Part shown: in pieces, positions 8,050 to 36,946 of the stretch
How the letters are laid out: each line of letters opens with the position of its first letter
Numbering within the stretch: position 1 is the stretch's first letter
Assembly: GCA_019118545.1 (NCBI GenBank)
Contig: DWYT01000125.1
Location: forward strand, 1-36,946
Direction of reading: 5' to 3'
DNA from: Candidatus Mediterraneibacter merdavium
GTDB taxonomy: Bacteria > Bacillota > Clostridia > Lachnospirales > Lachnospiraceae
Length of the DNA: 36,946 bases
Program-made: the position numbers and the translations under genes
Notes under the pieces: model-generated
The model's database searches: none
Seen by the model: the letters and a program-made list of their open reading frames with translations, nothing else
Told to the model about the DNA's origin: nothing

Positions 8050-8371
8050 CTGATATACTTCCGACGCTTACGAATTGCCGTGGTAGCAAAAAGGCCGCCG
8101 GAGTTTTTTCGAAAGCCTTTCTGCGGGGATGTGTTGGCAGATGCGGCGACTTCGGAATAGAACTTAGAAAAATAAAAATCCGGGAACATGCGTCGAAATT
8201 GGCAGAGAGATTGTCTGAGGCAAAGCCGAGTTGCTCTCTTCCAATTTCCGTTTTTAGCATGTTTCCAGATTTTGTTATTTTTCTTAATTCTATGGAGCGG
8301 AGCCGAAACTGCCAACATATTTCCGCAGAATATGTCTTAGATAAAACATCACGGACGGATAATCCGAAGTT
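8050..8371 (-). repeat. Long hairpin repeat, copy D (diverged)
   Basis: Read on the minus strand, this directly follows the glmM stop codon. It keeps the family hallmarks: an apical GGC-TTT-GCC triloop hairpin followed by TCAGACAAT, the segment TATTCCGAAGTCGCC, and a CCGCT...ATAAGAAAA stretch in the left arm. Its arms differ strongly from the other copies but pair with each other: GAAATTGG with CCAATTTC near the apex, and ATGTTGGCAG with CTGCCAACACAT further out. The core is clear from about 8075 to 8340; the ends are approximate because the terminal repeats are worn. Confidence 0.65.
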
Positions 8372-9715
8372 TTACTCTGCCAGTCCCTCTGCCTTGATGA
8401 CTTCCACAACGCTGTCCACGTGTTTCTCGCAGATCTCGTCCGTAGCCGCCTCGACCATGACGCGGATCAAAGGCTCTGTGCCGCTCTCGCGCACGAGGAT
8501 ACGGCCATCACTCCCAAGTTCATCCGCCACTTTCTGTACCGCCGCCTGAACAGCCGGATTCTCCCTTGCCGTCTTCTTGTCTGTGACACGCACATTTTTG
8601 AGAAGCTGCGGGAATATCTTTACTTCGTCAGCCAGCTTTCCAAGTGACTGCTTCTTCTCAAGGATTACTTCCATAATCATAAGGGAAGTAAGGATACCGT
8701 CACCTGTTTTCGCGTGCTTACTGAAAATGATATGTCCTGACTGCTCCCCGCCCAATACATATCCGTTCTTCAGCATATTTTCGTATACGTATTTATCGCC
8801 GACTGCTGTCTGCTCGTACTTCATGCCGATCTTATCACACGCTTTGTAAAGTCCCAGATTGGACATCACCGTTGTGACGATCGTATTATCCTCAAGGCGT
8901 CCCTGTTCCATAAGATATTTCCCGCAGACGTACATGATACGGTCGCCGTCTACGACATTTCCATTCTCATCCACCGCGATACATCTGTCGGCATCTCCAT
9001 CGTAAGCAAATCCCACGTCAAGCTTCTTCTCTTTTACAAACTGCTGGAGTATCTCGATATGGGTGGAGCCGCAGTTTGTATTGATGTTTGTTCCGTCCGG
9101 CTCATTGTTGATCACATATGTCTTTGCACCAAGAGCGTCAAACACACTCTTCGCGATGGCAAATGCGCTTCCGTTGGAGCAGTCAAGTCCGACTCTCTTG
9201 TCCTCGAAAGAGCGTGTCGCGAGGGAGATCAGATGTCCCATGTAACGGTTTCTTCCTGCCGCGTAGTCCACCGTGCGTCCGATATTCTCCTTTGTGGCAA
9301 GCGGAAGCTCTCCGATCTCGCCGTCGATGTATGCCTCGATCTTATCCTCAACCTCTGCCTCCATCTTATGTCCGGCGCTGTTGATAACCTTGATACCGTT
9401 ATCATAGAAAGGATTATGACTTGCTGAAATCATGATACCGCAGTCAAAATCCTCCGTCCTGACAACATAGGAGACACTCGGTGTCGTCGTGACATGGAGC
9501 AGATACGCGTCTGCACCTGACGCTGTCAGTCCCGCCGCCAACGCATACTCAAACATATAACTGCTTCGTCTTGTGTCTTTTCCGATCACGACTCTCGCCT
9601 TGTGATCCTGACCGAAATACCATCCTAAGTAACGCCCCACCTTAAACGCATGCTCTACAGTAAGAACTACATTCGCCTCTCCGCGGAAACCGTCCGTTCC
9701 AAAATATTTACCCAT
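8372..9715 (-). CDS. glmM: Phosphoglucosamine mutase
   Basis: The 447-residue protein is a full-length GlmM. It begins GKYFGTDGFRG, has the active-site phosphoserine loop MISASHNP (Ser99), the magnesium site DGDADR (Asp239, 241 and 243), and the C-terminal phosphate-binding loop VRESGTEPLIRVMVE. It converts glucosamine-6-phosphate to glucosamine-1-phosphate in the cytoplasm, feeding UDP-GlcNAc and peptidoglycan synthesis. It appears to be transcribed alone from a good promoter at 9792-9820 with a leader of about 70 nt. AGAGGAAG lies before the ATG. It ends directly against hairpin repeat copy D, which would therefore form its 3' untranslated region. Confidence 0.95.
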   Translation of the reverse strand: MGKYFGTDGFRGEANVVLTVEHAFKVGRYLGWYFGQDHKARVVIGKDTRRSSYMFEYALAAGLTASGADAYLLHVTTTPSVSYVVRTEDFDCGIMISASHNPFYDNGIKVINSAGHKMEAEVEDKIEAYIDGEIGELPLATKENIGRTVDYAAGRNRYMGHLISLATRSFEDKRVGLDCSNGSAFAIAKSVFDALGAKTYVINNEPDGTNINTNCGSTHIEILQQFVKEKKLDVGFAYDGDADRCIAVDENGNVVDGDRIMYVCGKYLMEQGRLEDNTIVTTVMSNLGLYKACDKIGMKYEQTAVGDKYVYENMLKNGYVLGGEQSGHIIFSKHAKTGDGILTSLMIMEVILEKKQSLGKLADEVKIFPQLLKNVRVTDKKTARENPAVQAAVQKVADELGSDGRILVRESGTEPLIRVMVEAATDEICEKHVDSVVEVIKAEGLAE

Positions 9716-18145: not shown

Positions 18146-18164
18146 AAAAAGCGTGTATTCAGCC

Positions 18165-18485
18165 GTTTCATTCAGGAACCTCTTATTGCACAACTCGAAA
18201 ACAGTCCCAATCACTAAGACATATTCCGAGAATGGGCCGGGGCGGTTGGATTCCGCTACAGGGGATAGGAAAACTAGAGGTTCTGAATCCGTCCGAAAAA
18301 CAGGACTTTCCATGGACAACTCCCTTCGGTCAGACAATTCCATGAAAAGTCCTAAGGGACGAATCCAGAACCTTAAGTTTTACTACTCCCCTTCCGAAGT
18401 CATCCTCCCGCCCGGCCCATTCCCGAAAAGTTTTCGCATTGGGTCTGTTTTCTGTTCTGTCCAATACGGAAGTCAGTAAATAAAC
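18165..18485 (+). repeat. Long hairpin repeat, copy A
   Basis: This 321-bp imperfect palindrome starts GTTTCATTCAGGAACCTC and ends with AATAAAC. From the outside inwards, AATGGGCCGGG pairs with CCGGCCCATT, GGTTCTG with CAGAACC, GTCC with GGAC, and the apical GGACTTTCCATGG with CCATGAAAAGTCC. The tip is a CC-TTC-GG triloop followed by TCAGACAAT (18330-18338). The segment TTCCGAAGTCA is in the right arm. It fills the gap between the sipL operon promoter and copy B. No reading frame in it looks like a gene. Confidence 0.85.
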
Positions 18486-18507
18486 GGCAGAAAAGCTGCA
18501 CGGGCAG

Positions 18508-18831
18508 GTTTATTCGGAAACTACATATCTGAAGAGCTTAAGAAAACGAAATACTTGAAAAAACTTTCAGAGCGGGTGAAGGAGTTGCCCGGGTGACTTC
18601 GGAAGGGAATTAGAAAAACTCAAGGTTGCGGGTATGTCCCTTAGGACTGCCGATGGAATTGTCTGACCGAAGGGAGTTGTCCATTGGCAGTCCTTGTTTA
18701 TCGGACATAGCCGGAACCTGTAGCTTTTCTTATTCCCTGTAGCGGAATCCCGGCGGCCCTCCATCCGCTCTGAATACGTTTTGCGCGCTTTCAGTTTCTG
18801 AATTCTGTAAGATAGAGTTCCTGAATTAAAC
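18508..18831 (-). repeat. Long hairpin repeat, copy B
   Basis: Read on the minus strand this 324-bp element begins GTTTAATTCAGGAACTC and ends GAATAAAC. The apical GGACTGCCAATGG pairs with CCATCGGCAGTCC with one mismatch. The tip is CC-TTC-GG followed by TCAGACAAT, and TTCCGAAGTCACC follows in the right arm. It faces copy A tail to tail across a 22-bp spacer (18486-18507) that itself contains a small CAG/CTG hairpin. It lies upstream of plsC. Confidence 0.85.
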
Positions 18832-18868
18832 GGTTGATGAAACGTGACAGAACGCGGCACGACAAGTC

Positions 18869-36267: not shown

Positions 36268-36387
36268 TGATGTCTCTCCTTTTCATGCACCGCCTAAAGA
36301 TTTTACTATTCTAACACATTCAAGAAGATTTCACCAGTAGGCAGGGAGAAGCAGTCCTGTACGACACACTTTCTTCACATATTCAGC

Positions 36388-36711
36388 TATTAATTTAGGA
36401 ACTTCTTCTTGCAGAATCCGAAAACCGAATTGCTAAACACGTATTCGGAGAGGGTGAAGGGCTGCCGGGATTCCGCTGCAGAAGATAGAAAAACTAACAG
36501 GCTCCGGCTATGTCCGAAAAGCAAGGACTGCCGATGGACAACTTGCTTCGCTCAGACAATTCCATCGGCAGTCCTAAGGGACATACCCGGAGCCTTAAGT
36601 TTTACTACTCTTCTTCCGAAGTCACCCGGACAGCTCCTTCACCCGCTCCGAAAGGTTTTTCAAACATATAGTTTTCCAAAACTTTCCAGACATGAAGTTC
36701 CTGAATTAAAC
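36388..36711 (+). repeat. Long hairpin repeat, copy C
   Basis: This 324-bp element has the best-preserved stem. It starts TATTAATTTAGGAACTTC and ends GAAGTTCCTGAATTAAAC. GGGTGAAGG pairs with CCTTCACCC, GGCTCCGG with CCGGAGCC, ATGTCC with GGACAT, and the apical GGACTGCCGATGG with CCATCGGCAGTCC perfectly. The tip is GC-TTC-GC followed by TCAGACAAT. TTCCGAAGTCACC is in the right arm. It lies about 120 bp upstream of the ABC fusion gene, divergent to it. Confidence 0.88.
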
Positions 36712-36719
36712 AGCCGGAG

Positions 36720-36783
36720 AGCAACAAGGCGCGGCTTGAAGACTTTCATCTGTTGAATAGTTCTTACGCCGCGCCGTGTTGCT
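36720..36783. other. Spacer hairpin between copies C and E
   Basis: AGCAACAAGGCGCGGC (36720-36735) pairs with GCCGCGCCGTGTTGCT (36768-36783) with one mismatch, around a 32-nt loop. It fills nearly the whole 80-bp gap between the facing repeats. No long U-run follows, so it is not a plain terminator. Confidence 0.6.
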
Positions 36784-36791
36784 TTCCAGAT

Positions 36792-36946
36792 GTTTATTTA
36801 CTAACTTTCGCCTTTGGTAACCGAGAAAACAGGCTCTATTTCGAGATACTTTCGGAGATGAGAATGATGTCGGGCAGGTGACTGCGAAAGGGATTAATAA
36901 AACTTAAGGTTCTGGATTCGTCCATTAGGACTTCCGGTGGAATTGT
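36792..36946 (-). repeat. Long hairpin repeat, copy E, cut by the window end
   Basis: Read on the minus strand this is the right half of the element: from the apical ACAATTCCACCGG through TTCGCAGTCACC to the terminal GTAAATAAAC. It matches copy A most closely near the apex (CCAGAACCTTAAGTTTTA). It faces copy C tail to tail. The left arm lies beyond the window. Confidence 0.75.

Follow-up and report, generated by a model that had tools for sequence, protein, structure and literature searches.

The window, a stretch of 36,946 nucleotides from Candidatus Mediterraneibacter merdavium (contig DWYT01000125.1, positions 1 to 36,946), carries five long imperfect hairpins, which alignment showed to be homologous. 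A sequence-only reading had noticed all five and described them as separate copies of a palindromic element. Four of them are instead the halves of two larger units (18165-18485 with 18508-18831, and 36388-36711 with 36792-36946), each made of two unlike arms joined tail to tail. The GTTTAATTCAGGAAC-type ends attributed to the whole set were present in the copies at 18165, 18508, 36388 and 36792, but not in the one at 8050-8371, which is of another type (C). The repeats of the window, where R1 denotes a sequence model built from 16 arms, are the following.

8050..8371, reverse strand: single divergent arm of type C, directly 3' of an ORF at 8372-9715 (reverse strand), with an R1 match at 8101-8344
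18160..18486, forward strand: unit 1, arm B, an imperfect hairpin of about 327 bp with its outer end, CAGCCGTTTCATTC, at 18160
18487..18507, no strand: unit 1, spacer remnant, 21 bp left between arms B and A
18508..18836, reverse strand: unit 1, arm A, tail to tail with arm B
36384..36715, forward strand: unit 2, arm A, with outer end CAGCTATTAATT
36537..36561, forward strand: apical loop region of arm A of unit 2, GGACAACTTGCTTCGCTCAGACAAT, the most conserved part of the family
36716..36788, forward strand: unit 2, GC-rich spacer hairpin between arms A and B, GGAGAGCAACAAGGCGCGGC...GCCGCGCCGTGTTGCTTTCC
36789..36946, reverse strand: unit 2, arm B, cut at the hairpin tip by the contig end

Unit 1 (B+A) thus spans 18160-18836, or 677 bp, and lies in a divergent gap between ORFs, while unit 2 (A+B), at 36384-36946, is incomplete because the contig ends at the tip of its second hairpin. 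The outer ends of the pairs lie a few bases beyond the limits first given and read CAGCC at 18160, CGGTTG up to 18836, and CAGCTA at 36384. Five contigs of the source genome end at a hairpin tip in this way (C53, which is that of the window, C5, C121, C88 and C111, at R1 model positions 163-182), so the arms probably break assemblies, and the family is probably one source of broken assemblies among gut genomes. One copy, 36388-36711, was compared with shuffled sequences and folded at -143.6 kcal/mol against -77.2 +/- 4.7 for the shuffles, none of 100 being as good (z -14.1). A whole unit folds into a closing stem, two giant arms and the small spacer hairpin, at -410 kcal/mol. That the repeats hold no credible gene was borne out, as the five mechanical ORFs overlapping the window arms had no Pfam match at E<=0.01.

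The source genome is a draft of 2.77 Mb in 168 contigs, 89.6% complete and with 5.3% contamination. R1 gave 105 matches on its two strands, palindromes matching twice, and profiles of types A, B, C and D, applied to fetched loci in contig coordinates at a score of at least 20 bits, resolved the copies into 62 loci: 26 tail-to-tail pairs, one irregular locus and 35 single arms or fragments. Each element is built from imperfect hairpin arms of about 330-370 bp, found alone or paired, and a pair consists of two unlike arms flanking a short GC-rich hairpin, measuring 735-757 bp in seven of eleven measured cases and 571-843 bp overall. By type, the pairs were A-D (10), A-B (4) and B-D (12), and none of the 26 joined two arms of the same type. 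This lack may reflect the near-perfect palindrome that near-identical inverted arms would create, but it may equally stem from descent from three founder pairs. The single arms and fragments were of types D (18), C (11), A (3) and B (3), and the irregular locus, on contig C68, combined an arm A with a D piece on the same strand. One paired unit (C24:6888-7736) carries an insertion of about 100 bp between arm A and the spacer, with palindromes of its own (GGACATGCAAGCATGTCC).

Whether such units are insertions was judged from nine occupied sites other than that of the window, for which 200 + 200 bp of flanking sequence were joined and compared with 58 genomes of the genus, including the own genome. 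As the sequence-only reading had anticipated for a mobile family, an unbroken junction was found in at least one genome for seven of the nine (L179, L153, L165, L171, C21a, C21b and C24a), and for two (L143 and L186) none was present among the matches listed from these 58 genomes. The pairs are therefore inserted DNA, and insertion polymorphism of the kind that marks miniature inverted-repeat elements (MITEs) is a property of the paired units. The clearest case was L179, from CALWTQ, a congener (uncultured Mediterraneibacter BRZ_GH bin5). Among the matches listed, this site was unbroken in at least 46 of the 58 genomes and was split by 757 bp in CALWTQ only; G010 had a 66-bp split, G070 and G081 matched on one side only, and eight genomes were not among the matches listed. 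In an alignment of 16 genomes the insertion came immediately behind a stop codon, any duplication being limited to a possible 2 bp, and on our reading the site lies between a gene end and the promoter of the next gene. At three sites of the source genome, the element was absent from G032 and from G076, which of the congeners listed is the closest, and short stretches had been added or lost at the junctions.

All scored sites lie between genes or at gene ends, which, with the length of the hairpins, is what would be expected of a chromosomal site or terminator that has a host function and was spread by duplication. Against this, presence at a given site varies between species, the number of R1 matches runs from 0 to 26 per genome among 36 congeners (up to 26 being scored), and the orientation of flanking genes is mixed (12 tandem, 5 convergent and 5 divergent among 22 sites scored with a crude ORF caller), so that we regard a host site of this kind as very improbable.

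The ends of the repeats were more informative for single arms than for pairs. Single D arms of the source genome are 358-369 bp long, extend to GTAACAGTTCAGCCATTTGATTC, and have terminal inverted repeats (GTAACAGTTCAGCC). Such repeats are another mark of MITEs, and the length of these arms also fits the MITE range of 50-500 bp, which the paired units (571-843 bp) exceed. Ten of the eleven displayed D arms were used to look for target duplications, nine of them with both ends. Exact 8-bp duplications flanked three of the nine (TTGCGCGG, GCATGAAC and AAGGGCCT), two more matched at 7 of 8 positions, and the remaining four had none (1, 2, 1 and 4 of 8 matching). A scan over lengths and offsets peaked at exactly 8 bp and zero offset (z 6.8), and an additional D arm, C88:9636-9997, also has an exact duplication. 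A search with the D-end pattern gave 74 matches versus 23 in a reversed control, and among the short pairs of ends were small elements of 54-164 bp that share the D-arm ends (GTAACAGTTC). Ten distinct short pairs were counted among those listed, four with an exact 8-bp duplication and one with 7 of 8. These small elements apparently share the mobilisation system of the single D arms, judging from their ends and duplications; the five with these exact or 7-of-8 duplications, from the source genome, are given here.

C18:18884-19047, small element (locus L302)
C154:42513-42676, small element (locus L304)
C9:19205-19282, small element (locus L307)
C83:14825-14897, small element (locus L309)
C42:1318-1371, small element (locus L312)

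Paired units have other ends. The 23 complete pairs of CALWTQ are 755-763 bp long (from extrapolated BLAST ends), that of R. turbiniformis is 765 bp, and both are bounded by CAGCTATWWAG...CTAAATAGCTG, an end pattern with 144 + 124 matches in a whole-genome count versus 0 + 0 in the reversed control. Scanning 19 units from CALWTQ and 11 from the source genome revealed no clear target duplication; the best peaks (z 4.2 and 3.6) arose among thousands of frames, and these weak peaks fall near the frame expected were the 9-bp tips present. At the unit ends of CALWTQ (82, two of which were dropped), 13 of 80 keep at least 6 of the 9 positions of GTAACAGTT, versus 22 of 1603 control windows, and the tip may therefore be ancestral and mostly lost. 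Two CALWTQ units in which both tips are partly kept (L160 and L128) had no matching 8-bp flanks. In five other CALWTQ loci (L153, L186, L189, L191 and L133), an extra copy of an end, of about 16 bp and like CAGYTATWWAGTTYAA, lies directly outside the element.

Among possible enzymes is that of IS66, whose elements have GTAA ends (PMC12888890). The IS66 transposase domain (PF03050) was detected in 11 of 37 searched genomes, and classical IS66 was rejected as the driver, since the domain is missing from the source genome and from 9 of 16 arm-positive congeners. A divergent match in a congener, G016, proved to belong to an intact-looking element of 1.8 kb (L267:149-1968) with ends GTAACAGTTCAGCC and GTAACAGTTCACCC and a flanking 8-bp duplication, CGAAAAAA. 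It shares 14 of 14 bp of its left end and 13 of 14 of its right end with the single D arms, and contains a single ORF for a protein of 485 aa that matches DDE_Tnp_IS66 (PF03050) at E 6e-21 and the NCBIfam model NF033517 (IS66) with 145.6 bits, below the 180-bit cut-off. By its ends, duplication, protein and size this is an element of the ISBst12 group of IS66, and its closest described relative among those compared is ISDge4 of the same group, for which PMC12898284 gives ends GTGACTACTCAGCA/GTAACTGCTCAGCA, a transposase of 449 aa and an 8-bp repeat. A small element with a similar end adjoins it. GTAA.. ends together with an 8-bp duplication, which characterise the group, were found in the single D arms, not in the paired units.

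A full match to this transposase occurred in one of 58 genomes, itself without an R1 arm, and no autonomous copy was found in the source genome. Relatives of about 30% identity were seen in G062, G013 and G033, while CALWTQ had a broken relative and G008 a fragment. Judged by eye from end spacing, in part among the first 100 of 268 end matches, neither the source genome nor CALWTQ showed an autonomous copy. The one IS256 gene (PF00872) of the source genome was also considered, but a nearby GTAACAG-like match resembles coding repeats and was taken as chance.

The most plausible explanation, in our view a likely one, is that the arms form a non-autonomous, MITE-like mobile family, the D arms being moved by an ISBst12-type transposase acting in trans; this reading is favoured because the units are insertions and the D arms have GTAACAGTTCAGCC ends with 8-bp duplications. 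Their shared ends and duplications make an IS66 transposase of the ISBst12 group the probable one for the single D arms. Pairs enter as whole units at sites that relatives have intact. In this scheme, a transposase of the L267 type, supplied in trans, would move single D arms and probably also the small elements with D-arm ends. The paired units might descend from the same system, with the outermost 9 bp and the duplications since lost, or might take another route. As the transposase is rare and absent from the source genome, mobilisation in trans is something we infer for the D arms, and with less assurance for the pairs. Loop sequences persist while stems change by paired substitutions, and the folded hairpin, in all likelihood in the form of a DNA cruciform or of single-stranded DNA, would be read by a factor of the cell or of the element.

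Among known systems, the ISBst12 group resembles the single D arms in its end (GTAAC.G.TCAGC) and its 8-bp duplication. It has a single-ORF DDE transposase, whereas the arms have no recognisable gene and the paired units mostly lack both the outer 9 bp and the duplication. Like type II prokaryotic MITEs, whose similarity to a parent is confined to the ends, the family is non-coding, with many intergenic copies, inverted ends, sites that are unbroken in relatives, and probable mobilisation in trans (review PMC10969869). MITEs are typically 50-500 bp, while here one or two giant hairpins make up the element (571-843 bp when paired), the arms of the 26 typed pairs are always unlike, and loops are conserved across genera. 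It is thus an unusual build on a MITE-like base, a known kind in a new form. The sequence-only reading had proposed a MITE-like element among its options, and the many intergenic copies and the unbroken sites in sister species bear it out. As regards ends, the likeness holds for single D arms, with their inverted ends, 8-bp duplications and an autonomous element bearing the same ends, but not for the paired units. Overall, its observation stands with the corrections given above, and its interpretation is partly supported. If the reading is right, the family unites ordinary MITE mobility, in the single D arms, with a fold that keeps its loops from genus to genus and whose tip occurs in some other phyla. 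It offers a concrete candidate transposase for single arms, open to assay, and would serve as a test case of the ways in which bacteria tolerate, detect or make use of very long hairpins in their DNA.

A REP-like nature had also been suggested. The inverted palindrome pairs do resemble enlarged BIMEs, and 20 of the 26 congeners with arms, as well as 4 of the 10 without them, have an ORF which, from its size and weak Y1 match, we take to be RAYT-like. However, repeats moved by a RAYT (TnpA_REP) transposase should be linked to it, and no arm was detectable in any of the 20 RAYT-like loci (nhmmer, E<=1, profiles of arms from the source genome), no RAYT-like ORF was seen in the arm-rich source genome itself, and the RAYT-like gene carries short inverted repeats of its own in the 15 loci displayed with complete flanks. 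We therefore consider a REP or BIME origin highly unlikely. Palindromes, inverted pairing and intergenic position are shared with REPs, BIMEs and REPINs, but the arms are about ten times longer, REPs being 20-40 bp in the description given in PMC3733652, and the linkage to RAYT is lacking. The RAYT-like genes of the 20 congeners (L240-L259) encode Y1_Tnp proteins of 234-284 aa with inverted repeats CGGGGACGTAGTAAAAT, and in our reading of 15 loci the gene lies between the end of a glyS-like gene and an aminopeptidase-like gene.

Under strict filters, with at most 26 candidates scored per genome, R1 arms were found in 26 of 36 congeners and in none of 24 genomes from other families of the order. 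In a sample of the family that took a single genome from each genus (299 in all), R1 matched the own genome and 2 of the 298 others, which had two and one weak matches. A pattern scan of a named genome collection returned 70 stretches, of which 61 were in CALWTQ. The others came from another Mediterraneibacter MAG (2), the Lapin-021 Lachnospiraceae MAG (2), R. turbiniformis, Clostridium sp. Marseille-P3244 and Candidatus Mediterraneibacter stercoripullorum and, outside the family, from a Gastranaerophilales MAG and Thiomicrospira sp. ALE5, the last two against about 0.03 matches expected by chance (estimated from 22 fixed bases). Phages and plasmids were rejected as carriers of the whole element, as there was no match in phage and plasmid records, and the viral contigs scanned with the pattern gave none either. 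Literature searches, which covered an open-access library, turned up no description of the family or of its tip sequence.

The arms might alternatively be transcribed and act as a structured RNA family on a mobile element. The fold was analysed in 38 A arms and 44 D arms from CALWTQ. Consensus pairs were kept in 98.1% of cells in A arms and 97.8% in D arms, against 39-54% in slid controls and 93% in shuffles, and 21 of 84 pairs in A arms and 18 of 78 in D arms had changed on both sides. Since most of these double changes separate a few sequence groups, they represent fewer events than cells; in A arms, 499 of 500 shuffles had more further pair types than were observed, and among 500 shuffles of the D arms 10 reached the observed number of double-changed pairs. 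Template switching within the palindrome could, moreover, yield double changes without selection. One D arm (L161:267-613) has a 5' half from one sequence group and a 3' half from another, a mosaic that points to exchange between copies within the hairpin.

Very stable folds, paired stem changes and conserved loops are all features that an RNA would have. Yet G-U and A-C mismatches were equally common in three alignments (26:29, 36:31 and 22:35), which reveals no preference for an RNA strand and weakens, without excluding, this reading, as copies may be drifting. Nor did any described family match the repeats: the window gave none at the gathering score among the 4227 families of Rfam 15, and two smaller Rfam searches, with E up to 10, returned chance-level matches only. 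Clostridiales-1 and Gut-1, the Rfam entries that the sequence-only reading had named as examples, are structured intergenic sequences of gut Firmicutes, a trait shared with the arms. In the 26 tail-to-tail pairs, furthermore, one arm is antisense to the other, and the flanking ORFs have all orientations. An RNA function is on balance improbable, although the conserved loops may still serve a function that depends on reading of the structure.

The conservation of these loops extends across genera. The apical loop, GG.CAACTC-N-TCARACAA, is kept in arms of the genomes G196 and G362 and of the Lapin-021 MAG, as is, one stem below, the pair CTAAAAGC (5') with AACGC (3'), more loosely on the 5' side in G362, while the stems of these arms differ from those of the window arms. 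In a table of hairpins, 19 of 20 of which could be located, the 13-nt loop had a mean identity of 0.92, a figure that is partly built in, since the loop served to locate the rows; the 13-nt stems beside it were near random, at 0.33-0.34.

One reading of this pattern makes the folded hairpin the signal for mobility: an enzyme would recognise apical and internal loops on folded single-stranded DNA and move the element without duplication, the IS66-type ends on some single arms being a secondary capture. It would account for paired units that insert without clear duplications, for loops more conserved than stems across genera, for the equal numbers of G-U and A-C mismatches, and for the occurrence of the tip on perfect stems in some other phyla. 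No such enzyme was found, however, the RAYT-like Y1 genes are not linked to arms, and the single D arms show textbook DDE-type duplications, and we think this rather unlikely. Slightly better placed, though still tentative, is the broader proposal that the arms are members of a class of giant ladder hairpins, as yet without a name and spread across phyla, with short drifting stems, fixed internal loops (5' CTAAAAGCA / 3' TTAACGC) and a cap, AACTC-N-TCARACA. The fold would then be the conserved object, read by some factor and spread without duplication, the Mediterraneibacter pairs would be two-ended mobile forms, and the IS66-type ends a secondary, hitchhiking route.

The reach of the tip beyond the family was explored with a 34-nt BLAST query, which on plasmids matched Marinobacter, Parabacteroides (2), Aureibacter and Ilyobacter (5 records, 8 places, E 0.3-0.9). 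This count is little above that of a reversed-query control (3 records, E 0.9), in which one of two loci examined has a 7-bp stem, counting G-U. A match in a Pseudoalteromonas phage had 1 bp and no stem and was taken as chance, and the tip was not found in E. coli. Stems next to the tip were weak in Ilyobacter (6 bp) and in Gastranaerophilales (3 bp next to the loop). In four other bacteria, the tip AACTCGCTNCGCTCARACA sits on stems of 7-11 bp that directly abut it, as follows, with the background chance of such a stem per position.

L323:2380-2640, Marinobacter: stem of 10 bp, chance 0.004
L325:2400-2620, Aureibacter: stem of 9 bp, chance 0.010
L190:5850-6060, Thiomicrospira: stem of 11 bp, chance 0.003
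L324:2000-2220, Parabacteroides: stem of 7 bp (in two Parabacteroides records), chance 0.058

It is because stems surround the tip in these four, rather than because of the BLAST count, that a hairpin tip appears to recur in distant bacteria, possibly as one ancient class, the sameness of the element itself not being proven. In Aureibacter, the likeness includes a CTAAAA/TTAACG pair one stem below the tip.
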